Source: Prescottella soli (GTDB lineage: Bacteria; Actinomycetota; Actinomycetes; Mycobacteriales; Mycobacteriaceae). From it: a stretch of 64,000 nucleotides of DNA. The stretch is taken from assembly GCF_040024445.1 (NCBI RefSeq), contig NZ_CP157276.1, forward strand, positions 3,844,001 to 3,908,000, given 5' to 3'. Each line of letters opens with the position of its first letter. The stretch's first letter is position 1. Below the pieces are notes generated by a model that made no database searches, had not been told where the DNA came from, and worked only from the letters and a program-made list of their open reading frames with translations. This document shows positions 33,687 through 57,850 of the stretch, one piece after another. The position numbers were made by a program, and so were the translations under genes.

Positions 33687-33757
33687 TTGACGTTACTTAC
33701 GTCACACCCCTATGCTCCCGGTCTAGCAATTGCTTGGTGAGTCAAGCGGTTGCTTGA
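33687..33757 (+). promoter_or_regulatory. Importer promoter with two operator types
   Basis: TTGACG (33687-33692), 18-bp spacer, TATGCT (33711-33716). TGACGT-N5-ACGTCA (33688-33704) covers the -35 and spacer. Just after the -10 lie CTAGC-AATT-GCTTG (33723-33736) and TCAAGC-GGTT-GCTTGA (33742-33757). The same layout recurs before the orphan binding-protein gene at 57.5 kb. Confidence 0.75.
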
Positions 33758-33827
33758 TGGGTCGTGTTCGGAAGGTGAAACCGCCAGGTAGTCGCTTTCG
33801 GTCCGGGCCAAGTTGTGTCCGACTGAG

Positions 33828-33843
33828 TCAAGCTAGCGCTTGG
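33828..33843 (+). promoter_or_regulatory. Third CAAGC-N4-GCTTG operator
   Basis: TCAAGC-TAGC-GCTTGG lies 35 bp before the binding-protein ATG, in the mRNA leader. Confidence 0.6.
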
Positions 33844-33877
33844 TTTGGTGTGTTTCGGGTGTCCTAGGAGGACAGTC

Positions 33878-35095
33878 ATGGGAAATCGGCGTCCAGTTGT
33901 CGTCGCGGCGGTTGCTGCCGCCTCCGTCCTGACTCTCGCGGGGTGCAGCAGCGCCGACTCCGCCGAGGCGGGCGGTGCCGACCAGCCGTATCGAGTGCTC
34001 GTCACCGGCGGCATCAGCGCGCAGGGTGTGCTCGCGGCCAACGCGCAGACGTCGATCCTCGCGACCAAGGCCGGTGTCGAGGTGCAGAACCAGGCCGGGG
34101 GCATCGGCGGCCGGCAGATCGAGCTGACCGTCGTCGACGACGCCGGTGACGCCACGATCGCCGTCACCAAGGTGCGCGAGGCCATCAACAAGCAGAAGCC
34201 GGACCTCGTCCTCAACTCCGGCCCGTCGTCCGTCGGCGCCGCGGTGCTGCCGATCCTCAAGCAGAACCACATCCTCTCGTTCAACGTCGCGCCCACTCCG
34301 GATTCGACGGACCCGTCGAAGTTCCCGCTGAACTTCGACCTCGCGCCCGGCGCCACCGACAACGCGCGTGGCATCGTCGGCTACGCGAAGGAGAAGGGCT
34401 ACACCGACATCGGCGTCATCCACGGCAGCACCGCGTACGGCGAGCTGTTCGGCAAGGAGATGACCTCGGCGCTCGAGAAGGCGGGCCTGAAGCAGGTGGG
34501 CAACGAGGAGTACGAGTCCACCGCGCTCGACATGACCGCGCAGCTGCAGTCGCTCAAGAATGCCGGCGCCAAGGCCCTCGCCCTCGACGCGTACGGCGCC
34601 CCGCTCGGCTACCTCCTGCAGAGCATGCAGCGTCTGGGTTGGGACGTGCCGCTGATCGGCAACACGTCGGTCTCCAGCACCAGCCTCGTCGCGAACGAGC
34701 CGCCGAACGGTGTCCTCGGCACCCCTGAGGTGAAGAACCTTGTCTCGCAGGTGTTCACGAGCACCGTCTACGACCCGAACAACGCGACCGTGAACAAGAT
34801 GGTCGACACCATGGCCTCGCTCGGCGCGATCTCGTCGACGCTGATCATCGCCGACAACTACGACGCGTTCCCGCTCGTCGCCGCGGCGGCCGAGAAGGCC
34901 GGCACCACCACCGACGCCGAGAAGCTGGCCGAGGCGCTCGAGACCGAAGAGGTCCAGAAGAACGCCCAGACGGCCTTCCTGGCGCGTTACAACTTCACCG
35001 CCGACAACCACGGCCCGAACCCGGCGCAGGACGAGATGCGGTTCATCGCGCCCACCAAGGTCCTCAACGGACAGTTCGGCAACCCGCAGGCATGA
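33878..35095 (+). CDS. HAAT-type ABC importer substrate-binding lipoprotein (1)
   Basis: 405 residues with ribosome site CTAGGAGGAC. Lipoprotein signal with lipobox LAGC at Cys23, then a type-I periplasmic-binding fold (Peripla_BP_6 class: YRVLVTGGISAQG..., LNSGPSSVGAAVLPILKQ). This class binds branched-chain amino acids, amides or aromatic and other hydrophobic acids. It is the first gene of the importer operon with livH, fused livM-livG and livF. A paralogue of the same length lies at 56.3 kb under a matching promoter. Substrate unknown. Confidence 0.92.
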   Translation: MGNRRPVVVAAVAAASVLTLAGCSSADSAEAGGADQPYRVLVTGGISAQGVLAANAQTSILATKAGVEVQNQAGGIGGRQIELTVVDDAGDATIAVTKVREAINKQKPDLVLNSGPSSVGAAVLPILKQNHILSFNVAPTPDSTDPSKFPLNFDLAPGATDNARGIVGYAKEKGYTDIGVIHGSTAYGELFGKEMTSALEKAGLKQVGNEEYESTALDMTAQLQSLKNAGAKALALDAYGAPLGYLLQSMQRLGWDVPLIGNTSVSSTSLVANEPPNGVLGTPEVKNLVSQVFTSTVYDPNNATVNKMVDTMASLGAISSTLIIADNYDAFPLVAAAAEKAGTTTDAEKLAEALETEEVQKNAQTAFLARYNFTADNHGPNPAQDEMRFIAPTKVLNGQFGNPQA

Positions 35096-35138
35096 GTTCC
35101 ATGATCTTCGTTCCCAATACTCAGAGGAGGGACCCGCG

Positions 35139-35996
35139 GTGACCATTCTGTGGTCGGGGCTTGCCCTCGGCGCTGTGTATGTGCTCGTGGCCATCGGGTA
35201 CAACATCGTGTTCGTCTCGTCGAACACCTTCAACTTCGCTCAGGCGCAGTTGATGATGGTCGGCACGTTCGTGGCCTACACGGGTCTGGTGACCCTGAAA
35301 CTTCCTGTGCTGGTGGTGGCCGTCATGGCCACTGTGACGGTGATGATCCTCGCGGCGGTCGAGGAGATGGTCGCGATCAGACCGGTCGCCGATCACCAGA
35401 ACCAATTGGTGACGACATTGGGCGCGGCGACGCTGCTCAACGGTGCGACGCAGTTGATCTGGGGCAGTGAGCCGCTCACGGTGCCGTTCTTCGGGTCCAA
35501 CGATCCGATCACGCTGCTCGGTGGACGCACCTACCCGGTCGAGATCGCGCTGCTGGTGCTGTCGATCGTGCTCGTGATCGCACTGGGACAGCTCAGCAAG
35601 CGGACCATGACCGGTCTCGCACTGATGGGCGTCTCGGAGGATCGCGAGGCCGCGATGCTGCGTGGCGTCAACGTGCGCCGCATCGCGATGGGCGCGTTCG
35701 CCTTCTCCGGTGCGCTCGCCGGCGTCCTCGGACTGTTCGTCGGTCCCAAGACGTTCGCGGTCGCGACGCTCGGTGCCGCGCTGGCGCTCAAGGGCTTCGT
35801 GGCACTGGCGATCGGTGGATTCGGTTCGCTGCCGGGCGCACTGATCGGCGGTCTGACCGTCGGCCTGGTGGAATCGTTCACCGCGCTGTGGTTCGGCAGC
35901 CAGTACAGCAACATCGCGGTCTTCACGGTGTTGATCGTCATCCTGATGGTCAAGCCGGCCGGATTGTTCGGCACGGTGAAGGAACGGGTGGTGTAG
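35139..35996 (+). CDS. LivH-type permease
   Basis: 285 residues from GTG 35139, with ribosome site AGAGGAGGG. Eight or so hydrophobic segments with the LivH core pattern (SSNTFNFAQAQLMMVGTFVAY near the start, and GFVALAIGGFGSLPGALIGG). One of the two membrane subunits of the importer. The next gene starts 2 bp after its stop. Confidence 0.92.
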   Translation: MTILWSGLALGAVYVLVAIGYNIVFVSSNTFNFAQAQLMMVGTFVAYTGLVTLKLPVLVVAVMATVTVMILAAVEEMVAIRPVADHQNQLVTTLGAATLLNGATQLIWGSEPLTVPFFGSNDPITLLGGRTYPVEIALLVLSIVLVIALGQLSKRTMTGLALMGVSEDREAAMLRGVNVRRIAMGAFAFSGALAGVLGLFVGPKTFAVATLGAALALKGFVALAIGGFGSLPGALIGGLTVGLVESFTALWFGSQYSNIAVFTVLIVILMVKPAGLFGTVKERVV

Positions 35997-35998
35997 CC

Positions 35999-37822
35999 AT
36001 GCAGATTTGGCGAACTCTCCGCGCGATCCCCAGCTGGATCTTCGCGCTCGTGTTCGGTGCCGCGGTCTTCGTCGCGCCGATGCTCGGCCTGGACGCGTCC
36101 AACACCCGGCAGCTCCAGCTCGCGTGCATTCTGGCGCTGGTGGTCAGCGGTCTGAACCTGAGCCTCGGTTACGCGGGTGAACTCGCGTTGGGGCAGGCCG
36201 CGATGTACGCGGCCGGTGCCTACACGGCGGGTCTGATGTCGCAGGCCGGGCACACCGAGATCCTGCTGCAGTTGGTCGCCGCGGGCGCCGTCGCGCTCGT
36301 CGTCGGCATCGTCACCGGCATTCCCGGTCTGCGGCTGGGTAGTTGGTCGCTGGCGATGACGTCGTTCTTCCTGATCCTGCTGGTGCCGGACATCCTCGCG
36401 ATCTTCGGTGGCAAGACCGGTGGCCGCAACGGCCTGTCCGGGATGGAGCCGCCGACGCTGCTCGGCCAGGACATCGACAAGGACTTCTACTACATCGTCG
36501 TCGCGGTCACGATCCTGTGGTTCGTGGTGATGCGCAACCTCGTGATCTCGCGGCACGGCATCGCGTTCCGCACGCTCAAGCAGTCGCCGGTCCTCGCGCA
36601 GTCACAGGGTGTGTCGGTGTTCCGGATGAAGCTGCTCGGGTACGCGATCGGTGCCCTGCCCGCGGGTCTCGCGGGTGCGTTGTTCGCGAACACCGACCTG
36701 TTCATCTCCCCGGAGGCGTTCGGATTCACCTTCGCGACCGCGGTTCTCGCGGCGTCGATTCTCGGCGGGTCCGCGAGTGTCTACGGTGCGGTGATCGGTG
36801 CGGCCATCATGCAGTTCGGCCCCAACCAGTCGACCGCGTTCCAGGAATACTCGCTGCTGTTCTACGGCGGCTTCCTGATCCTCGGTGGTGTGCTGCTCTC
36901 GGGCGGACTCACCAAGGTGTTTCGGTCGCTGGCCACCAAGCTCGACCGCAAGGCCGGCATCGGGGTGGCGGAGCGGCCGGCACCGCGCGATCCGAACGAG
37001 GTGCCCGTCGTGGCGCCGATCGCCGGCTCCACCCTCGAGGTCGACGGCATCTCGAAGGCGTTCGGCGGCAACCAGGCCCTGAGGTCGGCGACGCTGCGCG
37101 CCGAGGCCGGCAAGGTCACCGCGCTGATCGGCCCCAACGGTTCGGGCAAGACGACCATGCTGAACATGATCTGCGGCTTCTACACCGCGGACGCGGGACG
37201 CATCGTCATCGGCGACACCGAGGTCCAGAAGTTCTCGTCGCACCGGGTGGCACGCGAGGGCGTGGCGCGCACGTTCCAGACGCCGAACATCCCCGAGAAC
37301 GTCACCGTGCTCGAGGCGGTCGCGTCCGGCCGGTACATGACCGACCGCGCCTCGATGCTCTCGGCGGTGCTGCGGCTGCCGAGCTTCCGCAAGGTGGCCA
37401 AGGCAGACATCGCCGAGGCCGAGCGGGTCCTCGAACTCGTCGGGATGTCGCACCTGAAGGGCGAGGTTGCGACGTCGCTGCCCCTGGGCATGCGGCGCAT
37501 GCTCGAGGTCGCGCGCGCCGTGATTGCCGAGCCGCGGGTGCTGCTGCTCGACGAAATCGCGTCCGGCATGGACGAGGACGAACTTGTGCGGCTGTCGGTC
37601 CTGATCCGGGCACTGCGCGACGCCGGGGCCACGGTCCTGTTGGTGGAGCACAACTTCCGCCTGGTGCTCTCGCTCGCCGACACCATCGTGGTGCTGGCGC
37701 AGGGACAGGTCATCGCGTCCGGTCCGCCCGAGGAGATCGAGCATCACCCGCGGGTGCTCAGCGAGTACCTCGGCGTCGACCCCGACAGTGGAACCGCTGC
37801 CGAGCTGGAGAAGGTGGAGTGA
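35999..37822 (+). CDS. LivM-LivG fusion: permease joined to ATPase
   Basis: 607 residues from ATG 35999. Residues about 1-330 form a LivM-type permease (LSLGYAGELALGQAAMYA motif, 8-10 membrane segments). Residues about 345-607 form an ABC ATPase with Walker A GPNGSGKT (378-385) and Walker B VLLLDEIASGMDEDE. The ABC signature, usually LSxGQ, reads LPLGM (494-498), so this ATPase site may be degenerate, with LivF supplying the intact signature (MSGGQ). The stop overlaps the livF start by one base (TGATG). Confidence 0.9.
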   Translation: MQIWRTLRAIPSWIFALVFGAAVFVAPMLGLDASNTRQLQLACILALVVSGLNLSLGYAGELALGQAAMYAAGAYTAGLMSQAGHTEILLQLVAAGAVALVVGIVTGIPGLRLGSWSLAMTSFFLILLVPDILAIFGGKTGGRNGLSGMEPPTLLGQDIDKDFYYIVVAVTILWFVVMRNLVISRHGIAFRTLKQSPVLAQSQGVSVFRMKLLGYAIGALPAGLAGALFANTDLFISPEAFGFTFATAVLAASILGGSASVYGAVIGAAIMQFGPNQSTAFQEYSLLFYGGFLILGGVLLSGGLTKVFRSLATKLDRKAGIGVAERPAPRDPNEVPVVAPIAGSTLEVDGISKAFGGNQALRSATLRAEAGKVTALIGPNGSGKTTMLNMICGFYTADAGRIVIGDTEVQKFSSHRVAREGVARTFQTPNIPENVTVLEAVASGRYMTDRASMLSAVLRLPSFRKVAKADIAEAERVLELVGMSHLKGEVATSLPLGMRRMLEVARAVIAEPRVLLLDEIASGMDEDELVRLSVLIRALRDAGATVLLVEHNFRLVLSLADTIVVLAQGQVIASGPPEEIEHHPRVLSEYLGVDPDSGTAAELEKVE

Positions 37823-38541
37823 TGGAACCGGTTCTGAGCGTTCGGAATCTGCAGTCCGGCTACGGTGACCTGCGCGTGGTCTGGGACGTCTCGTTCGACG
37901 TCTACCCGGGCCAGGTGACGGCGCTGCTGGGGCGTAACGGTGCCGGCAAGACCAGCACCCTGCGCGCCATCTCCGGCCTGAACAAGGTCCACGGCGGCAC
38001 CATCGAGATGGACGGCCAGGACATCTCCGGGGTCGCCGCGCACCAGCGGGTGCGTCGCGGGATGGCATACGTGCAGGAGGGCAAGCGTGTCTTCCACAAG
38101 CAGACCATCGAGCAGAACCTGCTGCTCGGCGGCTACACCCGGAAGATGCGGCGCAGCGCCCTCAAGTCCGACGTCGAGCGCATCTACGAGATGTTCCCGA
38201 TCCTCGGGGAGAAGCGGAACCTGTTGGCGGGCTCGATGTCCGGTGGCCAGCAGCAGATGCTGGCGATCGGTGCGGCGCTGATGTCCAACCCGACCCTGCT
38301 GCTCCTCGACGAGCCGTCCGGTGGCCTGGCCCCGGTCATCGTCAACGAGGTCATGGAACGGGTGCAGCTGCTCAAGGAGTCCGGCCTGGCCGTCCTCCTA
38401 GTGGAGCAGGCCGTCGAGGCGGCGATGAGCGTCGCCGACCACGTCACCGTCCTCGACATCGGCAAGGTCGTCATGGACTCGCCGGCGTCGGAGATCGACG
38501 ACATCGCGGTCCTCAAGGACGCGTACTTCGGTCGCGTCTGA
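37822..38541 (+). CDS. LivF-type ATPase
   Basis: 239 residues. Walker A GRNGAGKTS, signature SMSGGQQQM, Walker B LLLLDEPSGGLAP, H-loop LLVEQAVE. Second ATPase of the importer, translationally coupled to the fusion gene. A long palindrome (38551-38605) follows within 10 bp and may end the transcript. Confidence 0.93.
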   Translation: MEPVLSVRNLQSGYGDLRVVWDVSFDVYPGQVTALLGRNGAGKTSTLRAISGLNKVHGGTIEMDGQDISGVAAHQRVRRGMAYVQEGKRVFHKQTIEQNLLLGGYTRKMRRSALKSDVERIYEMFPILGEKRNLLAGSMSGGQQQMLAIGAALMSNPTLLLLDEPSGGLAPVIVNEVMERVQLLKESGLAVLLVEQAVEAAMSVADHVTVLDIGKVVMDSPASEIDDIAVLKDAYFGRV

Positions 38542-38550
38542 CACACCGTC

Positions 38551-38605
38551 GAACGGGAGTTCACGGCACGCTTCGTTCGCGAAACCGTGCCGCGGGCTCC
38601 CGTTC
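38551..38605. repeat. Palindromic repeat, copy 3
   Basis: 20-base arms starting GAACGGGAGTTCACGGCACG. The right arm carries changes that mostly keep pairing through G-T wobbles. It lies directly after livF and 33 bp before the LLM gene. Confidence 0.7.
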
Positions 38606-38638
38606 GGCGTTTCACGGACAGCAAGAGGAGAGGGACAC

Positions 38639-39535: not shown

Positions 39536-39692
39536 GTGGCCCCGGTGGCCGTGGCTCTCGGGAGGAACTTGCTTCCCACTCACCGGGTCGATGGACTGGT
39601 GCCGGACGTGGATCTGCGGTGCGCTGAAGACGCTCGACCCAACTCGATGGCGGCGCGGTCACGCTCATCGTGAAGGCATCGCTGGAGGACGG

Positions 39693-40397: not shown

Positions 40398-40398
40398 A

Positions 40399-40428
40399 CG
40401 AACCCCTGAACTTCTGTTCAGGGGTTCG
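40399..40428 (+). terminator. Terminator after IclR 1
   Basis: Perfect 13-bp stem CGAACCCCTGAAC / GTTCAGGGGTTCG with loop TTCT, starting 1 bp after the stop. Confidence 0.85.
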
Positions 40429-40520: not shown

Positions 40521-40524
40521 CCGT

Positions 40525-40926: not shown

Positions 40927-41631
40927 ATGTCCGAAACCGAGCCCACCAACGACGCCGACGACGACGGCTACCCGTCGCTTCCCGCCACCAGTTGGGCCGT
41001 TCTGGGCATGTTGACCCTCGGCGAGGGGCTCACCGGTTACGACCTCAAGAAGTGGGCCGACTGGAGCATCGGCTTCTTCTACTGGAGCCCGTCGATCAGC
41101 CAGATCTACGCCGAGCTCAAGAAGCTCGAGGCCGTCGGTCTGGTCGAATCGGAGATGGTCTCGGAGCCGGGGGAGCGCGGTCGACGGGTCTACCGCATCA
41201 CCGGCCGCGGGACGCGAGCCGTGCGGAACTGGTCGCGGGACGCGCCGGTGGAGCAGCCCGTCCTCAAGCACGGGCTGATGCTGCGGCTGTGGATGGGGCA
41301 CCTCAACGAGCCCGACCAGCTGCGGGCGCTCGTGCAGTCGCACATCGAGAACATGGAGGCGATGCGCGAGCGCGCGAAGCTGCACGCCGACCACGCGACA
41401 CGTGAACCGGCGTGGGCGTTTTCGAAGATGAGCCTGATCTGGGCGGAGCGTTACTTCCAGGCCGAGATGGACCTGGCCCGGCAGATGCTCGACGACATCG
41501 ACGAGGCGGCCGAGACGTTCTCCCATGTGCGGGAGCGTGACGAGCTGGGCAACCCGATCCCCGAGGTGGCCGGATCCTGGCGTGATGTCGAGGATTTCGT
41601 CGAAGGCCTCGAGCGGCGCCGGCGGAACTGA
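40927..41631 (+). CDS. PadR-family transcriptional regulator
   Basis: 234 residues. N-terminal PadR winged helix (SWAVLGMLTLGEGLTGYDLKKWAD..., EPGERGRRVYRITGRG) and a C-terminal helical dimerisation domain (Vir_act_alpha type, about 100-185). PadR proteins usually repress genes for detoxification or catabolism of phenolics and lift on ligand binding. A -10-like TAGGCT ends 6 bp before the ATG and there is no ribosome site, so the message is probably leaderless. Confidence 0.9.
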   Translation: MSETEPTNDADDDGYPSLPATSWAVLGMLTLGEGLTGYDLKKWADWSIGFFYWSPSISQIYAELKKLEAVGLVESEMVSEPGERGRRVYRITGRGTRAVRNWSRDAPVEQPVLKHGLMLRLWMGHLNEPDQLRALVQSHIENMEAMRERAKLHADHATREPAWAFSKMSLIWAERYFQAEMDLARQMLDDIDEAAETFSHVRERDELGNPIPEVAGSWRDVEDFVEGLERRRRN

Positions 41632-41682: not shown

Positions 41683-42474
41683 TCAGGCGTACTGCAGGCG
41701 CACTCGCGGCGCGGCGGTGGGCAGGCTCTGGAGTCGGTTGCGGTGCGTGATGGGGGCGGCGCCGCTGCTCCGTCCGGTCAGGGTCTGCAGGACTGCGTTG
41801 GCGGCCATGCGGACCGGCGCGGCGTGGCGGTGATCGAACTTGAGGTGGCTCGTCGGCCCACAGATCGACAGGGCGGCGAGGACGCCGCCGACTGGTCCGA
41901 CGGGGACGGCGATGATGCCGATGCCGCCGGAGATCTGGCTGACCTCGTATGCGACGCCCATCTCGCGGACCTTGTGCAGCTCGGGCGTGAACTCGGAGAG
42001 GTTGTCGGTGCCGTTCGGTGTGTACGCGAGCAGCGCCTTGCCGATTGCCGAGTTGCGCGCCGGGTAGCGGCTGCCGATGCGGGTCGGTAACTCGGCCGCG
42101 AGTCGTCCGCCGATCTTGTCGAGGTACAGCACGTCTGATCCGTCCAGGACGCCGAGGTGCACGACATACCCGGTGACGCGGTGCAGTTCCTGGAGGATCG
42201 GAGCGGCGGCGCTGTGCAGGCGGTTCTGGTGGACCGCGAGCGAACCGAGTTCCATCAGGCGGGTGCCGAGCTCGTAGTCGCGTCCGTCGCGGCGCAGCCA
42301 CCGCATCTCCACGAGGCGTTCGAGCATCCGATGCGCCGACGACCGCGGCAGCCCCGTCCGCTTGACGACCTGCGCGAGGGTGAGACGGCCGGGGCCGTCG
42401 AAGGTGTCGAGAACCAGTGAAACCCGTTCGAGGATCGCGGTCGGGGTGGTGTCTGCAGCAGCTGGTGCGGTCAT
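41683..42474 (-). CDS. IclR-family regulator 2
   Basis: 263 residues from ATG 42474 (GAGGGAG upstream). Winged HTH (LTLAQVVKRTGLPRSSAHRMLERLVEM) and a complete IclR effector domain (VTGYVVHLGVLDGSDVLYLDKIGG..., AIGKALLAYTPNGTD). Paralogue of IclR 1, 2 kb away. It probably regulates itself through TATTTC-N5-GAAATA (42528-42544) and perhaps the oxygenase genes next door, whose transcription runs toward it. Confidence 0.9.
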   Translation of the reverse strand: MTAPAAADTTPTAILERVSLVLDTFDGPGRLTLAQVVKRTGLPRSSAHRMLERLVEMRWLRRDGRDYELGTRLMELGSLAVHQNRLHSAAAPILQELHRVTGYVVHLGVLDGSDVLYLDKIGGRLAAELPTRIGSRYPARNSAIGKALLAYTPNGTDNLSEFTPELHKVREMGVAYEVSQISGGIGIIAVPVGPVGGVLAALSICGPTSHLKFDHRHAAPVRMAANAVLQTLTGRSSGAAPITHRNRLQSLPTAAPRVRLQYA

Positions 42475-42527
42475 CGATGACTCCCTCACTTTTATCGAGC
42501 ATCGCGGTGAGACCCATCTGACGTGGG

Positions 42528-42544
42528 TATTTCGATTAGAAATA
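42528..42544 (-). promoter_or_regulatory. Perfect inverted repeat TATTTC-N5-GAAATA before IclR 2
   Basis: It is AT-rich, 54 bp before the start codon. IclR proteins commonly bind GAAA/TTTC-type palindromes, so autoregulation is likely. Confidence 0.6.
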
Positions 42545-42599
42545 ATGACATACGGATCGACGTTTGTGAAGTGGGTCACCAAGATCGAGATATGCCGAA

Positions 42600-42639
42600 A
42601 GGGGGAACCCAACGGTCCTGGTAGGACGGGGTTCCCCCT
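42600..42639 (-). terminator. Terminator of the oxygenase operon
   Basis: Stem AGGGGGAACCC / GGGTTCCCCCT, followed on the minus strand by a short T-run (TTTCGG), 35 bp past the stop of the dioxygenase gene. Confidence 0.8.
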
Positions 42640-42674: not shown

Positions 42675-43607
42675 CTACATCGCGGCGAGCGGTTCACTGC
42701 CGGACCAGTCGTGGCCCCAGTAGCTGTCGGCGGTGATCTCCTCGGACGTGTAGAACGTCTCGTCGACCAGGTGCCCGTCGGTGCCGAACTCGACGTCCCA
42801 GCCGCCGGGTGCGCGCACGTAGAAGGACACCATCTTGTCGTTGGTGTGCCGGCCCAGCGTCGAGGACACCGAGAAGCCGTCCTTCACGACGCGGTCGAGC
42901 GCCTGGCCGACGGCGTCGAGCGTGTCGACCTCGACCATGATGTGGACCAGGCCGGGCGCACCGCCGTGCGGGGCCGGGCACAGGGCGAGGCTGTGGTGGC
43001 GCTGGTTGACACCCAGGAACCGAACCCGCAGGGGGCCGAACTCCGGCGGGGCCGGGATCCGGAAGGCGCCGCGCGGCAGGAACCCGAGCACCTCGGTGTA
43101 GAAGTCGAACGTGCCGTTCGGGTCCATCGTCGGCAGGACGACGTGGCCCAGACCCTGTGCGCCGGTGACGAACTTGGCACCGAACGGGGTGACGACGGGG
43201 CTGTGGTCGAGGACCGCGCCGTGGAAGACCTCGAGGGTGGTGCCGGCCGGATCCTGGAAGGTCACGACCTCCTCGACGCGGCGGGCGTCCGCCTCCTCAA
43301 GCGAGAGCGGCTTGACCGGAATCCCGGCGCGCTCGACGGCCTCGGTGACCCGGACCAGTGCGGCGTGGTCGCGGACCTCCCAGCCGACGGTGACGACCTC
43401 GTCGGTCTCACCGGGGACGACGACGATGCGGGCGGCGCGCTCGTCCATGCGCAGGTACAGGGCGTCGGGGTCCGGGCCGGAGCCCTCCGCGAAGCCGAGG
43501 ACGTCGAACGCGAAGGTGCGCCAGCGGTCCATGTCGTTGGTCTGGACCTTCACGTAGCCCAGTGCGCGGATGTCGGTGCCGAAGCCCCCGACATTGGGGT
43601 TCGTCAT
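42675..43607 (-). CDS. Type I extradiol (catechol meta-cleavage) dioxygenase, BphC/HsaC-like
   Basis: 310 residues, two tandem VOC modules. Iron ligands His155 (GLGHVVL), His222 (GLVHIMVEVD) and Glu273 (WDVEFG); second-shell residues His205, His254 (GRHTND) and Tyr263 (SFYV). These match BphC and HsaC, which open catechol rings next to the hydroxyls with Fe(II) and O2. Last gene of the kshA-like to hsaA-like to hsaC-like operon, 44 bp after its neighbour. HsaC itself acts on a steroid catechol; the substrate here is open. Confidence 0.93.
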   Translation of the reverse strand: MTNPNVGGFGTDIRALGYVKVQTNDMDRWRTFAFDVLGFAEGSGPDPDALYLRMDERAARIVVVPGETDEVVTVGWEVRDHAALVRVTEAVERAGIPVKPLSLEEADARRVEEVVTFQDPAGTTLEVFHGAVLDHSPVVTPFGAKFVTGAQGLGHVVLPTMDPNGTFDFYTEVLGFLPRGAFRIPAPPEFGPLRVRFLGVNQRHHSLALCPAPHGGAPGLVHIMVEVDTLDAVGQALDRVVKDGFSVSSTLGRHTNDKMVSFYVRAPGGWDVEFGTDGHLVDETFYTSEEITADSYWGHDWSGSEPLAAM

Positions 43608-43651: not shown

Positions 43652-44833
43652 TCAGATCATCGCGCGCAGCGGACCCTGCGGGTCCACACCCAGGCCGCTG
43701 AGCGTCGCGGCGTGGTACACGGTGCCGGGGACGTGGATCGCGTGGTGCAGACCGGCGTGCGCGTCACGCCAGAAGCGCTGCATCGGCTTGTCCATGCGCA
43801 GCGCGTTGCCGCCGCAGCGGGCGTACACGGCATCGATGGCCTGCACGGCCTGCCACGCCGCGTTGACCTGGGTCTCGCGGCCGAGGGCGCGCTGTTCGAA
43901 CGTCGGGGTCTTGCCGGCGTCGACCAGGTCCCACATGCGATCGACGTTGGCCAGCAGCGAGTCCCGGGCCGACTGCAGCTTCGCGGTGGCCTCGCCGACC
44001 GCGAACATCGTGTACGGGTCGTCCTTGACCGCGGTGCCCTGCGGGTTGATCCGCTCGCGCTGGTACTCGTTGGCGTGGTGCAGCACGCCCTCGCAGATGC
44101 CGATCGTGGCCGACGTGATGCCGAGCGGGAACATGTTGGACCACGGCATCAGGTACAGCGTCTCGGTGCGGCCGTACTTGCGGACCGCGGTGCCGTCGAT
44201 GACCTCGTCGCAGTCCATCACGCGGTAGTCCGGCACGAACGCGTCCTTGACGACGACGTCCTTGGAACCGGTGCCACGCAGACCCACGACGTCCCACGAG
44301 TCCTCGATGATCTCGTAGTCGGTGCGGGGGATGATCACGTGCAGCATGCGGGGCGGCATCTCCATGCTGCCGTCCGGGTTACACGCCATCGCGCCGAGGA
44401 ACGCCCAGTCGCAGTGGTCCGTTCCCGAGGAGAAGGACCACTTGCCGGAGAACTTGTAGCCGCCGTCGACCGGCACGCACATGCCACCGGGCATGTACGG
44501 CGACGCGAGCCACGTGTCCTGATCCTGTCCCCAGACCTCCTGCTGGACCTTGGGATCGGCGAACGCCAGCTGCCACGGGTGGACGCCGACGATGCCGTGG
44601 ACCCAGCCCGCGGATGGGTTCAGCGACGCCATCCGCATGACGGTCTCCGCGAACTCGCGCGGGTGGACCTCGAGGCCGCCGTGCTCCTTCGGCTGGAGCA
44701 TCCGGATCGAGCCGGCCTCCTTCATCCGCTTGGCGGTGGCGTCGGCGATCTTGCCGATCCGCTCGGCCTCGACGCCCTCGACGAAGATGTCGTCGGCGGC
44801 GGCCTCGATGCGGGACAGGACTTCGTAACTCAT
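43652..44833 (-). CDS. HsaA-like flavin-dependent monooxygenase (acyl-CoA dehydrogenase fold)
   Basis: 393 residues, the length of HsaA (394). An N-terminal helical domain is followed by a beta domain (GMCVPVDGGYKFSGKWSFSSGTDHCDW) and a C-terminal four-helix bundle. This class includes HsaA and HpaB-like enzymes that hydroxylate phenols using reduced flavin supplied by a separate reductase. No HsaB-type flavin reductase is seen in the window. Placed between the Rieske oxygenase and the extradiol dioxygenase, it fits a phenol-to-catechol step. Confidence 0.88.
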   Translation of the reverse strand: MSYEVLSRIEAAADDIFVEGVEAERIGKIADATAKRMKEAGSIRMLQPKEHGGLEVHPREFAETVMRMASLNPSAGWVHGIVGVHPWQLAFADPKVQQEVWGQDQDTWLASPYMPGGMCVPVDGGYKFSGKWSFSSGTDHCDWAFLGAMACNPDGSMEMPPRMLHVIIPRTDYEIIEDSWDVVGLRGTGSKDVVVKDAFVPDYRVMDCDEVIDGTAVRKYGRTETLYLMPWSNMFPLGITSATIGICEGVLHHANEYQRERINPQGTAVKDDPYTMFAVGEATAKLQSARDSLLANVDRMWDLVDAGKTPTFEQRALGRETQVNAAWQAVQAIDAVYARCGGNALRMDKPMQRFWRDAHAGLHHAIHVPGTVYHAATLSGLGVDPQGPLRAMI

Positions 44834-44874: not shown

Positions 44875-46044
44875 CTAGGAGTTCGCCGGCGAGTTCGGGG
44901 CCTGCTTGGCCATGTTCTCGGCGACTTCCTTCTCCCAGCTCGCGACCGCCCGGGTGGTGTCGATCTCGAACTCGAAGCGCTTGGTCATGTCCTCGCTGAT
45001 GTCCTCGACATCGACGTAGAACTGCTGGTACCAGCGGCGCAGCTGGTATACCGGGCCGTCCTCCTCGGAGAGCAGCGGGTTGTCGATGGGCGCCTTGTTC
45101 TTCCAGATCTCGACGTCCTGCTCGAAGCCCATCTCGACGCCCTCCGCGAACTGCGCGGCCATGCCGGTCGACTCGTCGTCGGACAGGCCCGGGAGCTTCT
45201 TGACGATCGCGCCGTACTGCAGCACGAACTCGTTGTTGCTCACCGGGTAGTGGCAGTTGATGAGGACCGTCTCGATGGTCTGGCCGTTGGCGTCCGACTC
45301 GAGCCAGTCGATCATGTACGACGGACCGAAGTACGTGGCCTCCGAACGCAGCTCGGCGTTGGGGTCGTCGTAGTTGGTGCCGGAGATGATGTCCTCGCGG
45401 CCGGTCGAGTGCATGTACTGCGTGGCAGTGTGGCCCTCGAAGACGTTCTTGAAGTAGCGCGGGAACGAGTAGTGGATGTAGAAGAAGTGCGCCATGTCGA
45501 CGACGTTGTCCACGATCTCGCGGCAGTGCGAGCCCTTGATGCGGAGGGTCTTCCAGCTCCAGTCCGTCCACTCGTCCGAGCCGTAGCCGGCGATGTCAGG
45601 GATGGTCACATCGGCCGGCGGCGGGTTGCCCTGCGGATCGTTCCAGACGTACAGCTGGCCGTTCTTCTCGAGCGTGGTCCACGCGCGGGTCTTGGCGACC
45701 GGGGGAACGCGGCGGGCGTAGGGGATGTCGGTGCACTTGCCCTTGCCGTTCCAGCGCCAGTCGTGGAACGGACACGCGATGGTGTCGCCCTTGATCTCGC
45801 CCTGGCTCAAGTCACCGCCCATGTGCCGGCAGTACGCGTCGAGGACGTTGAGATCGCCCTTGCTGTCGGCGAACACGACCAACTTGGTGCCGAACGCCTC
45901 GATCGAGTGCGGCTTGCCGTCCTTGAAGTCGCGGAGGAGTCCGAGGCAGTGCCAGCCACGAGCGAATCGGGTGGGGGCAGCCGCGGCCTCGATCTCGCGG
46001 ATCTCGACGTTGTCGTCGTTGGTCGTTGCGGTGTCGATTGACAT
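44875..46044 (-). CDS. kshA: KshA-type Rieske oxygenase (3-ketosteroid 9-alpha-hydroxylase oxygenase component)
   Basis: 389 residues with ribosome site GGAGG. Rieske [2Fe-2S] ligands Cys72, His74, Cys91, His94 (YCRHMGGD and CPFHDWRW). The mononuclear iron site is NVVDMAHFFYIHY, with Asp183, His186 and His191. Very close in motif and length to KshA, the terminal oxygenase that hydroxylates 4-androstenedione-type steroids at C9. Rhodococci carry several KshA paralogues with different substrates. The reductase KshB is not in the window. First gene of the operon; start codon faces the SDR genes across 258 bp. Confidence 0.9.
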   Translation of the reverse strand: MSIDTATTNDDNVEIREIEAAAAPTRFARGWHCLGLLRDFKDGKPHSIEAFGTKLVVFADSKGDLNVLDAYCRHMGGDLSQGEIKGDTIACPFHDWRWNGKGKCTDIPYARRVPPVAKTRAWTTLEKNGQLYVWNDPQGNPPPADVTIPDIAGYGSDEWTDWSWKTLRIKGSHCREIVDNVVDMAHFFYIHYSFPRYFKNVFEGHTATQYMHSTGREDIISGTNYDDPNAELRSEATYFGPSYMIDWLESDANGQTIETVLINCHYPVSNNEFVLQYGAIVKKLPGLSDDESTGMAAQFAEGVEMGFEQDVEIWKNKAPIDNPLLSEEDGPVYQLRRWYQQFYVDVEDISEDMTKRFEFEIDTTRAVASWEKEVAENMAKQAPNSPANS

Positions 46045-46302
46045 GAATTCCTCCGTGCCGTCAGGGGTTGGGGGACCTGTGATGCGCCTCATAGAACTCG
46101 GCGGCGTGTCGCGTGGGAAGTGACTCTCCCGCTGGATGGAACGCGCCCGACTCTGTGGTATAGCGCCTGCTCGGCGCGGGGGTTGCGGGGACCGGGCCGA
46201 GTCGGCGCCTGGCCGCCGGACGTACCTCCCACCACGCGGGAAGATCACTCCCGGCCCCGTGTCGGCTCTGGCTAGCGTCGCGTCACGGTGAAAGGAATGA
46301 CG

Positions 46303-53500: not shown

Positions 53501-53867
53501 GCCGGATCGCCGCGTCGAGGGAACCGAGGCGGCGGAACGGCATCACGATGTAGGGCCGCCCGGTGGCCGTGACCCCGACCTGCAGCACCTCGACGACGTG
53601 CGGGTGGCCCGTCAGCTTCCCCAGTGCCCGCTGTTCACGGAGGAACCGTTCGCGACCTTCGCCGCCGACTTCGGTGCGCGCGATCTTGACCGCGACCGTC
53701 CGGTCGAGCGACGACTCCGTGCAGCGGTAGACGACGCCGTATCCGCCACGACCGATCTCGACCGCGTCCTCGAAGCCCTCCATCGCGAGCTCGGTCTCGA
53801 TCGCGCCCGGTCCACCGCGCTGCGTCGCCTGGGGATCCCCAGCCGCCTGTGTCGGCTCGTCGCCCAT
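50505..53867 (-). CDS. pknK: PknK-type Ser/Thr kinase with MalT-like ATPase/TPR region
   Basis: 1120 residues. Kinase domain about 33-290: glycine loop GRGGYGVVY, Lys61 (VAVK), catalytic LHRDIKPAN (Asp155), SDFG (Asp173) and activation loop VGTPDFTAPE. After a Pro-rich linker, an NTPase domain with Walker A APAGFGKT (357-364), winged helix (GEYLADNVV..., YHQLFADYLRRRLE) and TPR-like helices to the end. No C-terminal LuxR HTH. Size and order match mycobacterial PknK (Rv3080c, about 1110 residues), a signalling kinase that slows growth and affects transcription. It stands as a single gene. Confidence 0.92.
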   Translation of the reverse strand: MGDEPTQAAGDPQATQRGGPGAIETELAMEGFEDAVEIGRGGYGVVYRCTESSLDRTVAVKIARTEVGGEGRERFLREQRALGKLTGHPHVVEVLQVGVTATGRPYIVMPFRRLGSLDAAIRRDGPFDWPEALRLAVQLTDALDTAHRLGILHRDIKPANILITDYGDPELSDFGIARVPDAFESRAGDVVGTPDFTAPEILVGAAPTPASDVYSMAGTIFHLLTGHAAFQLRRGEKPSTQLRRLVTETIPDLRPAGVPDDLCRVLEQAMSVDTADRPATAADLAEQLRDVQRGHELTTDVPTPRPSGPVRRTQPPQPPTPVTKFRPPVAEHAFVERARLVRMLDDTRPRLLSVIHAPAGFGKTVLAAQWRDVLLDAGVSVAWLSLDSQDDNVAWFLGHLLQSVRQVRPELTDELGQAIEEFGVEAERFVLTSLINRVHDSGARLVVVIDDWHRVSDPATVAALNFLLGNACHHLGLVVTTRTRSGLPLGSLRVRDELVEIDESDLRFDAEESRRFLVDRAALDLDPDTVQALQATTDGWAAALQLASLSLRGREDPVDVITHLSGRSRAIGEYLADNVVGALDPHLLDFLLCTSVPERVSGPLASRLADVPDGQSLLEEVEERDLFLRAEDVDRSWFRYHQLFADYLRRRLERDPDRVADLHRRASSWFLDHSMLREAVDHALAAGDAEQATDLVEHHGMGLVEHSLMATVLGLVDKLPPQIATARPRLLLTQAWAHVLLHHPPRSVKLLLEQTRSLLTDAPDGASTADLLAESALVDGVCDLFADRVGRLADFSDACLRRRDTLSPFVLAGAVNLAEFDALYRFDFDSVRRWQERQSVEFPTAESGPFVSMYGSCFAGIAAGEQLDYEAADGLYRRAGQLAREHGGRRSYAARLVGALTGDRLYQQGRLDDADQLFDECHLLGAEGGAVDFMLLTYGTGARVKALRGDPGGATTRLSEGAAIARTLGLSRLAARIENDRARCGLPHEKVDPADLRWPPDDGIAIITADLLEDTAIRDLLTQKTSDAQHEAVRMARARVDRIAGRHRPLQHLRAQLLHAACLFSAGDRPAAFTALEPPLLRCADLGLPRTAIDAAPRMVDLIDAYRQDATPERAERLPG

Positions 53868-53887
53868 GCCGAATCACCTCGGAAGTC

Positions 53888-53935
53888 CCGCGGACCCGTG
53901 TCCGGTCCGCGGCGGCATCGTGCCCGGCACGATGC
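53888..53935. terminator. Two consecutive hairpins between the reductase and pknK
   Basis: CCGCGGACC-N7-GGTCCGCGG (53888-53912), then GCATCGTGCC-C-GGCACGATGC (53915-53935). Together they probably terminate the reductase transcript; they also lie in the pknK leader. Confidence 0.6.
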
Positions 53936-53992
53936 GGTTGCGCATCCAATACTAGGTCGGCTGTCGCAGACCGGACCGTCGGAAATCGGTGC

Positions 53993-54760
53993 TCAACCCA
54001 CCGGATCGAACCGGATCGACTCGGCCGGGGTGCCGGTGGCGACCAGTCGGTCGCGGGTGCTGCGCACCATTCCGGGCGAACCGCAGACCAGCACCTGGTG
54101 GTCGACGAACGCGCCGTGCGCGGCGACGACGTCGCCGAGCGTGCCCTCGAGCAGGTAGTCGTCGTCGAACCCGGTGAGCGCGTCGTCCCCGATCTCGGCG
54201 CGGATCCGCTCGTACCACTCGTCGGGCGCACCCGGGTCGGTGACGTCCTCGACGACGGGAATGGTTGTGAGCCAGGGTAACTGCTGCGTGAGGATCCACA
54301 GCATGTCGGACGCGTACAGGTCCTGAACCGTCCGGCCGCCGACGAACAGGTACACCTGCGGCGGATTCTCCACCTGGGTGAGATCGAGAATGATCGAGCG
54401 TAGCGGGGCCAGACCTGTTCCGCCGGCGACCATCACGACGGTCGGACCGTTCTCATCGACGGCGAGTTCGCCTCGCGGCGATGCGAACCGCCACTGGTCG
54501 CCGGGCACCGTGTCGGCGACGATGCTGCCGCTCACCCAGCCGCCGGGTACCGCCCGCACGTGGAATTCCATCTTGCCGTCGAGCGACGGGGGCAGCGCGG
54601 GGGACAGGCGTCGCGGCAGCCGCGGGTGCCGGGGAACGGTGACGTCGACGTACTGGCCGGGGTGGAACGGGACGGGCTCGCCGATCAGGCGCACCACCGC
54701 GAGATCCCTACGCAGGCGGTGGTGTTCGACGACCGTGGCGGTCCAGGTCTGCTGCTCCAT
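53993..54760 (-). CDS. FNR-type FAD/NAD reductase (stand-alone)
   Basis: 255 residues from ATG 54760. FAD-binding barrel with RRLSPALPPS and PGGWVSGSI, then an NAD domain with VAGGTGLAPLRS and the C-terminal CGSPGMVRSTRDRL. It equals the reductase half of the flavohaemoglobin at 57.9 kb but has no globin and no 2Fe-2S domain. It could feed electrons to a partner such as a globin or oxygenase. No ribosome site; TAACAAT ends 6 bp before the ATG, so the mRNA is probably leaderless. Confidence 0.88.
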   Translation of the reverse strand: MEQQTWTATVVEHHRLRRDLAVVRLIGEPVPFHPGQYVDVTVPRHPRLPRRLSPALPPSLDGKMEFHVRAVPGGWVSGSIVADTVPGDQWRFASPRGELAVDENGPTVVMVAGGTGLAPLRSIILDLTQVENPPQVYLFVGGRTVQDLYASDMLWILTQQLPWLTTIPVVEDVTDPGAPDEWYERIRAEIGDDALTGFDDDYLLEGTLGDVVAAHGAFVDHQVLVCGSPGMVRSTRDRLVATGTPAESIRFDPVG

Positions 54761-54766
54761 GCCGCC

Positions 54767-54773
54767 ATTGTTA
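54767..54773 (-). promoter_or_regulatory. -10 element of a leaderless promoter
   Basis: TAACAAT on the minus strand, 6 bp from the ATG at 54760. Confidence 0.5.
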
Positions 54774-54795
54774 CCGGTGGGCTGTTGCGCCCCTG

Positions 54796-55650
54796 TCACT
54801 GCCCCGATCCGAAGGCTCGGCCGGCCCAGTCGGCGAAGGACGTCCATCCGATGTCCGGGAACTCGGAATGCAGCCGTTCCAGGTCGACCTGGTAGCCGGG
54901 GCCATTGAGAAACCACCACATCGCGTGCATGTCGGGATCGGCGATCGAGCCCAGGGGAACCTGCTCGAGATGGACCGGAGATCCGAGCGCTGTCGCGAGA
55001 GCCGCCGCCATCGTTTCGGGAGTGGGTGCGTCACTTGCCAGTTCGATGCGTCGTCCGCGGTACCGCTCGGGCGAGAGCAGGACGTGCGCCGCGAACGAGC
55101 CCAGGTCTGCGCGATCGAGCTGCTGCAGAGGACGGTCCGCCGGCAGCGGCAGGTCGAGCACTCCCTCCGTGCGGATCCGGTCGGCGCCGCCGAGGGCGTT
55201 GTCGAAGAAGTACGTCGGTCCCAGGATCGTGTGAGGCAGCCCGCTGGACTTCAGCTCGGCCTCGATGACGGCCTTGCTCTCGAAGTGCGGAACGCCGCTG
55301 TCCTGATCGGCGCTCGCCACCGAACTGAACACCAGATGTGGTACCCGTGCCCGACCGGCGGCGGCGATGATCGTGCGGCCCTGGGCGATCTCCGCGTCGA
55401 CACCGGACTCGAACGGAGTCGTCATCGCGAACACGGCCGCGACGTCGCGCATTGCCGCGGCGAGGGAATCCTCGTCGTCCAGTGAGCCGGTGACGACGTC
55501 CGCGCCTTTCTCGGCGAGGGCGCGGGCGCCGGCGGAAGTCGGGTTGCGGACCAGTGCCCGCAGCGGCGCGCCCCGCTCGAGCAGGGCGGCGCTGACTGCG
55601 CGTCCCTGTCCGCCGGTGGCAGCGAGAACCAGTATCGGACGGTCGGCCAT
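54796..55650 (-). CDS. NmrA-like NAD(P)-binding protein
   Basis: 284 residues with ribosome site GGAGGAG. N-terminal dinucleotide fold (ILVLAATGGQGRAVSAALLERG), FSSVASADQDSGVPHFESKAVIE, and the TILGPTYFFDN pattern of NmrA/HSCARG-type atypical SDRs, which often sense NADP redox state and lack the catalytic Tyr-Lys pair. It is a separate gene, 35 bp before the reductase start. Confidence 0.85.
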   Translation of the reverse strand: MADRPILVLAATGGQGRAVSAALLERGAPLRALVRNPTSAGARALAEKGADVVTGSLDDEDSLAAAMRDVAAVFAMTTPFESGVDAEIAQGRTIIAAAGRARVPHLVFSSVASADQDSGVPHFESKAVIEAELKSSGLPHTILGPTYFFDNALGGADRIRTEGVLDLPLPADRPLQQLDRADLGSFAAHVLLSPERYRGRRIELASDAPTPETMAAALATALGSPVHLEQVPLGSIADPDMHAMWWFLNGPGYQVDLERLHSEFPDIGWTSFADWAGRAFGSGQ

Positions 55651-55738
55651 CGGATCTCCTCCGGTCGGCTCCAGTCGGTGAAGGGCGCGGTGCTCTCGAC
55701 GCGAGCGTACCTCCGGCGCCGACGTCGACACGACGAAA

Positions 55739-55780
55739 CGGGGGCCGTGAATCGTGCCCGATGCACGATCACGGCCCCCG
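55739..55780 (-). terminator. Terminator after the SnoaL-like gene
   Basis: An 18-bp stem (one bulged A) built from CGGGGGCCGTG/CACGGCCCCCG and ATCGTGC/GCACGAT, starting 11 bp past the stop. Confidence 0.8.
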
Positions 55781-55791
55781 GTTGTGCGAGG

Positions 55792-56301
55792 TCAGTACGA
55801 ATGGAACCAACTGCGGTTCCGGCCGACCGCCACCTCCCTACGGTGCGCGATCCGCCACCCGTCGGATGTCCGCCGATACCGGACCGTGTAGTGGCCCGCG
55901 ACGTGCGCATGCCGTGTCTCGGCTTCGCCCGTCGCGCCCGACCGGAACTCGAAGTGGATTCGGGCCGTCGCCTCGTCCCCGTCCAACACGATCGACGGGG
56001 TGTTCAGCAGGTGGATGCCGGACGTGTGCGCGGTGAACTCGACGCAGAATCCGCGCAGCGCGTCCCCACCCCGGATCGTCGCGCCGGGCACGCCGCCGAC
56101 CTCCGCCAGTTCGAAGACCCCGTCCTCGGTGAACTGGCCCGCCCACGCGTCGGCGTCACCGGAATCCCACGCCGGTGCGTAGGCGCCCTCCAACTGGAGG
56201 ATGGCGAGGGTGTCCTCCACCGCGGCAAGGCGCTCCTCGAGCGAACCGGTGGACGCCGGCCGCGGCGCGTGAAGTGCTTGCTTCGTCATGCCGTTCGCCA
56301 T
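55792..56301 (-). CDS. SnoaL/NTF2-like protein
   Basis: 169 residues from ATG 56301; an ATG at 56289 is an alternative. Cone-shaped NTF2 fold: LEERLAAVEDTLAILQLEGAYAPAWDSGDADAWAGQFTEDGVFEL at the N-terminus and HYTVRYRRTSDGWRIAHR at the C-terminus, as in scytalone-dehydratase-like, ketosteroid-isomerase-like and hydroxylating-dioxygenase small subunit-like proteins. It begins 5 bp after the stop of the binding-protein gene, so the two share an operon, which suggests the enzyme acts on the compound the binding protein captures. Confidence 0.82.
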   Translation of the reverse strand: MANGMTKQALHAPRPASTGSLEERLAAVEDTLAILQLEGAYAPAWDSGDADAWAGQFTEDGVFELAEVGGVPGATIRGGDALRGFCVEFTAHTSGIHLLNTPSIVLDGDEATARIHFEFRSGATGEAETRHAHVAGHYTVRYRRTSDGWRIAHRREVAVGRNRSWFHSY

Positions 56302-56306
56302 CCGCG

Positions 56307-57524
56307 TCAGGCGGCCGGATTGCCGTACTGGCCGTTGAGCAGCTTGCTCGGCGGCACGAACCTGTAGCCGTCGTCCGCGAGGTTGGGCGCGTGCGACTCC
56401 GACGAGTAGTGGTAGCGGGGCAGGAACGCCGTCTTGGCGTTGTCCAGCACCTGCTGATCCTCGAGGGCCGCGGCGAGCTTCTGCGGATCCGACGTCGACC
56501 CCACCTTGTCGGCAGCGGCAGCGACCAGGCCGAACGGGTCGTAGTTGTCGGCCAGGATCAGCGTCGACGGGATGGAGCCCATCGACGCCATCGTGCTCAC
56601 CATCGTGTTGACCGTCGTGTCGGCGGCGTCGTACACGGTGCTCGGGAACACCTGCATGACCAGGTTGGACGCGGCGCGGGTGCCCAATGCTCCGTCGGGC
56701 GCCGGCTTGGCGATCAACGCGGTGCCCGAGACGGACGTGTTGCCGATCAGCGGGATGTTCCAGTCGAGTCGCTCGAGGCTGTTGAGCAAGTAGCCCAACG
56801 GCGCGCCGTAGGCGTCGATGACGAGGGCCTGCGTTCCCTTGTTCTTCAGCGCCTGCAGCTGGGCGGTCATGTCCAGCGCCGCCACGTCGTACTCCTCGGT
56901 GCCCGACATGCTGACTCCCTCGGCGGACAGCGAGGAGGTCATCGCCTTGCCGAAGGCCTCACCGTAGGCGCTGCTGCCATGGATGACTCCGACCTGCTGG
57001 TAGCCCTTGCTCTTCGCGTACCGGGCGAGGGACACCGCGTATTCGGTGGGCGAAGGGGACAGGTCGAAGTTGAGGGGGAACTGCTCCGGATCGGAGGAGT
57101 TGTCCGTGGGACCGACGTTGAACGACAGGATCTTGTTCTGCTTCAGGATCGGCAGCGTCGCTGCCGAGACCGTCGACGGACCCGAGTTGAGGTAGAGATC
57201 CGGCTTCTTCCCGGAATTGACCGCGTCGCGCAGGTTCGAGACGGCCTTGGTGGCGTCACCGCCATCGTCGACGATCGTGAGTTCCACTTGGCGCCCACCG
57301 ATTCCGCCGTTCTTGTTGACCTCCTCGGCGCCCGCTTTCGCCGCGAGGATCGAGGTCTGCGCGTTGGCGGCCAGCGAGCCCTGGCCGCTGATCGCCCCGG
57401 TGACCAGTACCCGGTACGGGCCGCTGTCGCCGGCGTCGTCGCCGGACGCCGAGCCCGAACAGCCCGCGGTGGCGAGGGCGCACACGGCCAGCGTCGTCAC
57501 GAGCGCAGAATGCCGAATCTTCAT
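56307..57524 (-). CDS. HAAT-type substrate-binding lipoprotein (2, orphan)
   Basis: 405 residues from ATG 57524 (GGAGG upstream). Lipobox ATAGC with Cys22, then the same Peripla_BP_6-type fold as the 33.9-kb protein; shared blocks include YRVLVTG, IGGRQ, SGPS, LPILKQN, LDMTAQLQ and IDAYGAPLGYLL. No permease or ATPase genes are adjacent, so it may use the importer at 35-38.5 kb. Expression is probably joint with that operon because the two promoters match. Confidence 0.92.
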   Translation of the reverse strand: MKIRHSALVTTLAVCALATAGCSGSASGDDAGDSGPYRVLVTGAISGQGSLAANAQTSILAAKAGAEEVNKNGGIGGRQVELTIVDDGGDATKAVSNLRDAVNSGKKPDLYLNSGPSTVSAATLPILKQNKILSFNVGPTDNSSDPEQFPLNFDLSPSPTEYAVSLARYAKSKGYQQVGVIHGSSAYGEAFGKAMTSSLSAEGVSMSGTEEYDVAALDMTAQLQALKNKGTQALVIDAYGAPLGYLLNSLERLDWNIPLIGNTSVSGTALIAKPAPDGALGTRAASNLVMQVFPSTVYDAADTTVNTMVSTMASMGSIPSTLILADNYDPFGLVAAAADKVGSTSDPQKLAAALEDQQVLDNAKTAFLPRYHYSSESHAPNLADDGYRFVPPSKLLNGQYGNPAA

Positions 57525-57850
57525 GCCAGTTTCCTCCAATGGAGACACGACGGATCACAAGCATGTGCTTGGGTGCCGCAGACGCTAAGGGTGTGACGTG
57601 GATTACGTCAAGACGGTTCTTCGCTCGCCGGGATATCGAAAGATGTTATGCGCCAACCGTGTTGGACATCCTCGACGCACGCGATCGACCGACGCCCCGT
57701 TCGGGCGTCGGTTCGCGGTCGGTCTTCGGTTCCGTGGGTGGGCGCCCGTCGCCCAGCTCGGTCTGCGAGGGCGGCGCGGTACTCGACGACGACGCTAGGG
57801 CTGCGGAAGCGCGGTTCCTACGGGGCCTCCCGCTGACCGGTCGGTTTCCG
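57525..57850. other. 326-bp intergenic region
   Basis: It holds the orphan binding-protein promoter (57558-57611) and a hairpin GACGCCC-N5-GGGCGTC (57691-57709) that may end the flavohaemoglobin transcript. The rest shows nothing recognisable. Confidence 0.6.
57558..57611 (-). promoter_or_regulatory. Orphan binding-protein promoter, twin of the importer promoter
   Basis: On the minus strand TTGACG (57611-57606), 18-bp spacer, TAGCGT (57587-57582). TGACGT-N5-ACGTCA covers 57594-57610. CAAGC-N4-GCTTG (57558-57571) lies just downstream of the -10. After the inverted repeat both promoters continue with CACCC before the -10. Confidence 0.75.

Follow-up and report, generated by a model that had tools for sequence, protein, structure and literature searches.

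Two binding-protein promoters of Prescottella soli share two types of control site and probably belong to a KstR2-type steroid regulon

Why two genes for substrate-binding proteins (SBPs) of the HAAT type, facing in opposite directions in the Prescottella soli genome (5.48 Mb), should share one promoter design is the question raised by the locus described here, a 64,000-nt stretch (G000:C1:3844001-3908000) referred to below as the window. The SBP1 promoter (33687-33716, plus strand) consists of TTGACG, an 18-bp spacer and TATGCT, and the SBP2 promoter (57611-57582, minus strand) of TTGACG, an 18-bp spacer and TAGCGT; CACCC precedes the -10 in both. The inverted repeat TGACGT-N5-ACGTCA lies over each -35 element and spacer, and CAAGC-N4-GCTTG follows each -10. 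A sequence-only reading of the window had recorded all of these features, which are present as it described them, and had proposed from them a regulon with two operator types. Its account of the first promoter holds in part: the single CAAGC site that it claimed is exact at 33743 (site B), the position just after the -10 belongs to a copy with one mismatch at 33723 (site A), and both this and another exact copy at 33829 (site C) had been missed. The explanation that we consider probable is that both promoters are members of a KstR2-type regulon for steroid C/D-ring catabolism in Prescottella and Rhodococcus, in which CAAGC-N4-GCTTG would be the operator of a TetR protein of the KstR2 family.

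Both elements were sought with exact and mismatch-tolerant patterns, and the numbers expected per genome come from a dinucleotide model built on the window. Within the window, exact copies of the TGACGT palindrome occur at the two promoters only (33688-33704 and 57594-57610); six matches with up to two mismatches were found against 4.05 expected, so that only the exact copies stand out. Three exact places were found in the genome (0.65 expected), the third of them inside a long predicted open reading frame (ORF). Exact CAAGC-N4-GCTTG occurs three times in the window (33743-33756, 33829-33842 and 57558-57571) and at nine places in the genome (2.4 expected), and five window matches were found with up to one mismatch, against 1.06 expected. 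With three and nine places in the genome, chance alone would put 0.0006 pairs within 60 bp of each other, and the two-site layout shared by the SBP1 and SBP2 promoters is thus far from chance.

The layout is also conserved. SBP genes were identified in 11 of 14 genomes of the genus, 22 genes in all, and TTGAC-N10-TCACA, the form in which the -35 element is best described (see below), precedes all 11 SBP1-type and all eight SBP2-type genes, including a fragmentary SBP2 in G183. The remaining three genes are extra paralogues in G009 and G039 (L038, L039 and L048) with neither promoter element in the stretch read. Across the family, a relaxed joint pattern was found in 18 of 401 genomes, representing three of 31 genera, and its 25 rows all fall at SBP promoters, an SBP gene following in all eight genomes outside the genus; the reversed control gave none. 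None of these rows falls at an unrelated promoter, and there is good support for the proposal that the promoters form one regulon with operators of two types. Upstream of the SBP2-like gene of R. jostii (L024), outside the genus, the 330 bp read contain a CAAGC site and no TTGAC-N10-TCACA element. In 12 SBP1-type promoters, including that of Rhodococcus sp. P-2, sites A and B lie 15-16 bp and 34-38 bp after TCACA, respectively, in 11 promoters each, site B of G075 having two mismatches; both sites are lost in G142. The position of site C floats; it is exact in nine of the 12 and two mismatches away in G173 and G130, and was not seen in Rhodococcus sp. P-2.

The sequence-only reading had suggested footprinting with the IclR, PadR and other local regulators; for the CAAGC site, its distribution makes the local IclR or PadR a less likely reader than a distant protein. 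Three of the nine exact genomic places are at the SBP promoters, five precede other catabolic genes, among them echA20/ipdA, fadD and aceA (Table 1), and one lies in a predicted ORF (L014). A KstR2 orthologue is encoded at G000:C1:2152352-2152921, adjoining a thiolase gene (fadA6 by context), and its best named PDB match is KstR2 itself (4w1u, E 3.2e-78). A form of the site is present at all 10 kstR2 promoters read in the 14 genomes of the genus, with one mismatch in eight (CTAGCAATCGCTTG in eight and CAAGCAATCGCTTG in two); some of these loci (L194, L195, L204 and L067) were recognized by the adjacent thiolase gene. KstR2 is known as a regulator of steroid C/D-ring catabolism, with HIP-CoA as its effector (PMC6593523, PMC8399759, PMC6678751). 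Among its published motif instances is R. jostii ACCGAACCAAGCGATTGCTTGGTA (ro04652/53), which is exactly CAAGC-N4-GCTTG (Kendall 2010, Table 3, PMC3068626), and CAAGC-AAGT-GCTTG is present in the Rv3549c/Rv3550 probe to which KstR2 of M. tuberculosis bound (PMC3068626). The presence of the site at distant catabolic promoters, together with the published R. jostii form, makes a distant TetR protein the most likely reader, and KstR2 and/or a paralogue of it (G000:C1:4043699) the most likely candidates. In G105 and G118, KstR2 is the only KstR2-family TetR at E<=1e-30, yet each genome has three exact N4 sites, one of which was read in each (at echA20/ipdA and at an SDR gene, respectively); this favours KstR2 as a reader.

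SBP1 and SBP2 are paralogues of equal length, as had been claimed (405 residues, 62% identity). A complete HAAT (Liv-type) importer is encoded from the SBP1 promoter (PF13458, PF02653 twice and PF00005 twice), with LivM and LivG in one ORF. The SBP2 gene run contains SnoaL-like, NmrA-like and reductase genes and no permease; the SBP2-like genes of R. jostii (L024) and G021 are followed by LivH, LivMG and LivF. Between the promoters lie KshA-, HsaA- and HsaC-like genes, three SDR genes and a FadD8-like ligase gene. The KshA-, HsaA- and HsaC-like neighbours and the probable KstR2-type operators point to steroid ring intermediates or breakdown products as the probable cargo of the importer. In an R. 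equi strain, a branched-chain-type binding protein and livF are listed as raised by estrogen in two treatments out of three (PMC7471831); no correspondence between these genes and the present ones could be established.

In the mechanism proposed, KstR2 (G000:C1:2152352) and/or its paralogue, which shares the sequence GILSGSLYH with it, would occupy the CAAGC site downstream of the -10 and, as a bound repressor, would block the four-gene importer operon (SBP1-LivH-LivMG-LivF) and SBP2. A coenzyme A (CoA) thioester from steroid ring breakdown would release the repressor and allow uptake of extracellular ring intermediates. A second regulator, plausibly the local PadR or the second of two IclR proteins, would bind the TTGAC-N10-TCACA element that covers the -35 and spacer, and with two operators the transporter would respond to two signals. 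The identity of the DNA-binding proteins, the effector, the substrate and the direction of control in this scheme we infer; what was observed directly is that the sites exist, are rare and conserved, and lie in this gene context.

A number of points weigh against this scheme. The published KstR2 consensus, AnCAAGnnCTTGnT, has a different half-site spacing (N2), and the bound Rv3549c/Rv3550 probe also contains this N2 form (PMC3068626), so that it is not clean proof of binding to the N4 form. Strict AnCAAGnnCTTGnT occurs at one place in the genome, before a FadD3-family ligase gene, and at neither SBP promoter. The reversed CAAGC-N4-GCTTG pattern has 66 genomic places, although it is a poor control because composition alone predicts ~16. 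Six KstR2-like TetR proteins are encoded in the genome, any of which is a possible reader. G173 and G130 both encode KstR2, yet their site C departs from the motif at two positions. The steroid substrate is deduced from neighbouring genes, of which the HsaA-like (354.8 of 450) and HsaC-like (368.2 of 450) proteins both score below their NCBIfam cut-offs, the latter exceeding that set for biphenyl-2,3-diol dioxygenase. Among solved structures, the homologues of SBP1 and SBP2 bear the names Leu/Ile/Val-binding or extracellular ligand-binding protein. Finally, as had been claimed, no exact copy of either site was found in the window among the intervening genes, and the catabolic genes there are thus not under the same double control.

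An arrangement that is quite possible, though we would not expect it to be correct, has the paralogue reading sites A and B and KstR2 reading site C, so that the transporter would answer to two ring metabolites. The paralogue is present in 11 of the 14 genomes of the genus, and the promoter of the fadD gene beside it has an exact N4 site in seven of them and one with a single mismatch in two; the form at this promoter is often ATCAAGC-N4-GCTTGAT, which is that of site B in several relatives. G142 is the sole genome of the 11 with the transporter that lacks the paralogue, and the sole one with neither site A nor site B at up to two mismatches, while site C is kept; this is, however, one loss event only. 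GILSGSLYH is common to KstR2, the paralogue and the TetR protein at G000:C1:2908770, three of the six. The correlation is imperfect elsewhere: G130 and G173 have the paralogue (66%) with no N4 site found at its fadD promoter, G075 has it and yet carries two mismatches in site B, and G163 has it with no transporter. Site A of the window is also closer to the operator of kstR2 itself than to the fadD site.

The second element was examined by its conserved form. TTGACG-N8-GTCACA has 20 matches in the 14 genomes of the genus, 18 of them at SBP promoters and two inside long open frames of G009, and none in the three genomes without SBP genes. The reversed control has 10 matches in the same genomes and the dinucleotide model predicts ~0.7 per genome, so single matches mean little; 18 of 20 at one promoter type does not look like chance. 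A column analysis was made of 22 distinct promoter sequences, selected by TTGAC-N10-TCACA and thus with columns 1-5 and 16-20 fixed by construction. The right arm of the supposed palindrome is kept only as TCACA, with the preceding G in 16 of the 22, and within its N5 column 9 is A in 21 and column 11 is C in 19, making these two columns more informative than arm columns 13-15. The exact palindrome of the sequence-only reading, although it is present at both window promoters, is accordingly not the conserved form; the alignment indicates that the element is real, with a core of TTGAC-N10-TCACA rather than a fixed TGACGT palindrome.

The conserved columns 9 and 11 would also fit a CRP/GlxR-like cyclic AMP receptor site (CGnnA-N6-TCACA) and hence control by carbon source, and TCACA is the type of half-site found in the CRP consensus. 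We regard this as unlikely: the left half is never GTGA and overlaps the -35, which alone would keep TTGACG, and the TCACA columns are among those fixed by selection. The proposal of a regulator at each operator fares better for some local candidates than for others. The PadR protein is found in the same 11 of the 14 genomes as the transporter, with no match in the other three, and the second IclR lies beside it in all 11; in a second genus, both are present within the 20 kb read in five of seven genomes. A third genus, represented by G021, has the element but neither protein in the 20 kb read; this speaks against both candidates unless their genes are located elsewhere. The local PadR or the second IclR is plausibly the reader. 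The first IclR was rejected in this role, a close orthologue (91%) being present in only one (G075) of the other 13 genomes of the genus, and a MerR-type promoter was set aside because 18 bp is an ordinary spacer length. That the two promoters merely descend from one duplicated along with its gene, with no second regulator, is in keeping with the paralogy of SBP1 and SBP2 but is improbable, as unselected upstream DNA would be expected to drift at this level of protein identity, and the common blocks are limited to TTGAC-N10-TCACA, the -10 region and the CAAGC sites, a combination that recurs in three genera.

An extension of the KstR2-type scheme, offered tentatively, is a three-input gate in which KstR2 and its paralogue would sense different ring CoA thioesters and a local regulator would act at TTGAC-N10-TCACA, with one importer and two exchangeable binding proteins scavenging leaked intermediates; aceA would be tied in, the glyoxylate shunt rising with ring breakdown.

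The KstR2 regulon described for Mycobacterium and Rhodococcus (PMC3068626) resembles the present system in its CAAG/CTTG palindromes; here the echA20/ipdA promoter has the N4 site and the kstR2 promoter its one-mismatch form. It differs in the consensus spacing, and neither a HAAT transporter nor a second element at the -35 is named in the available parts of that report. In R. jostii RHA1, a close relative, the ABC importer CamABCD (ro04888-ro04885) takes up cholate metabolites (PMC8399759, PMC6678751, PMC6498646). The likeness, as far as description goes, is that of an ABC importer for ring intermediates of cholate, with four genes to judge from its name and the range of its loci; the available parts of those reports do not say how it is controlled. 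A literature search on KstR2 with branched-chain amino acid, ABC transporters and Rhodococcus gave no account of such control in the extracts returned. If the assignment is correct, uptake would be added to a regulon known for enzymes of ring C/D breakdown, and a concrete Prescottella/Rhodococcus regulon would comprise two binding proteins, an importer, aceA and several KstR2 paralogues; TTGAC-N10-TCACA would be singled out as a second operator with two local candidate readers.

Table 1. Positions of the promoter elements and genes in the window, and of further exact CAAGC-N4-GCTTG sites in the genome
Feature	Position	Strand	Remark
TTGAC-N10-TCACA element (-35 + spacer), SBP1 promoter, with TGACGT-N5-ACGTCA	33687..33706	+	kept in 11/11 SBP1-type genes of genus
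-10 TATGCT, 18-bp spacer, SBP1 promoter	33711..33716	+	sequence
Site A, CTAGC-N4-GCTTG, one mismatch (CAAGC-type), SBP1 promoter	33723..33736	+	
Site B, exact CAAGC-N4-GCTTG, 20 bp from site A	33743..33756	+	
Site C, exact CAAGC-N4-GCTTG, near ribosome-binding region of SBP1	33829..33842	+	
SBP1, HAAT-type substrate-binding lipoprotein, 405 aa	33878..35095	+	PF13458
LivH-type permease	35139..35996	+	PF02653
LivM-LivG fused permease-ATPase (ORF; exact start unset)	35888..37822	+	PF02653 + PF00005
LivF-type ATPase (start approximate)	37822..38541	+	PF00005
First IclR regulator	39591-40397		
PadR-family regulator, candidate TGAC-element reader	40927..41631	+	
Second IclR-family regulator (ORF; start uncertain), candidate TGAC-element reader	41683..42612	-	55% identical to first IclR
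HsaC-like extradiol dioxygenase	42675..43607	-	
HsaA-like flavin monooxygenase	43652..44833	-	
KshA-type 3-ketosteroid 9alpha-hydroxylase oxygenase (start approximate)	44875..46104	-	PDB 4qdc, E 2.3e-259
1120-aa Ser/Thr kinase-ATPase-TPR protein, between both SBP operons	50505-53867		
Flavin/ferredoxin-type reductase, downstream of SBP2	53993..54919	-	
NmrA-like protein, downstream of SBP2	54796..55731	-	
SnoaL-like protein, downstream of SBP2	55792..56301	-	
SBP2, second binding protein, 405 aa	56307..57524	-	62% identical to SBP1
Exact CAAGC-N4-GCTTG site, SBP2 promoter	57558..57571	-	
-10 TAGCGT, 18-bp spacer, SBP2 promoter	57582..57587	-	
TTGAC-N10-TCACA element, SBP2 promoter	57592..57611	-	
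Exact CAAGC-N4-GCTTG	L008		before acyl-CoA synthetase (fadD) adjoining KstR2-like TetR
Exact CAAGC-N4-GCTTG	L009		before isocitrate lyase (aceA)
Exact CAAGC-N4-GCTTG	L011		before enoyl-CoA hydratase/CoA-transferase pair (echA20/ipdA by context)
Exact CAAGC-N4-GCTTG	L012		before SDR pair
Exact CAAGC-N4-GCTTG	L013		before NMO-family gene

Several of the CAAGC sites outside the window have features of their own. The site upstream of aceA (L009, 5001-5014) reads CAAGCAACTGCTTG, and the identical 14-mer is present in other genomes of the genus. Before the NMO-family gene (L013, 4993-5026) the site is part of a 34-base palindrome, ATCAATACCAAGCAA-CTGC-TTGCTTGGTATTGAT. Long palindromes also surround ATCAAGC-N4-GCTTGAT at the fadD promoters beside the KstR2-like TetR gene (L093-L095, L097-L099 and L102), reaching TGGTCA ... 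TGACCA in some genomes. In G039 and G009, CAAGCGATTGCTTG lies ~22-24 bp before the matched start of orthologues of another KstR2-like TetR, that of L052 (L191, 1324-1337, and L192, 1394-1407), which suggests autoregulation. The inverted repeat CCGAATGTCACATCGG ... CCGATGTGACATTCGG is found upstream of kstR2 in P. soli (L054). Of other regulators considered for the CAAGC site, BkaR was ruled out because the core published for it, GTTA(N)T(N4)A(N)TAAC (PMC3920632), is different. A motif was also sought from Mycolicibacterium KstR3, for which a term search of PMC10398937 gave no operator.

Upstream of the SBP1 promoter (33550-33604), an inverted repeat, GAACGGGAGTTCA ... TGAACTCCCGTTC, is partly retained in several relatives and may act as terminator for the heat-shock genes that come before it.

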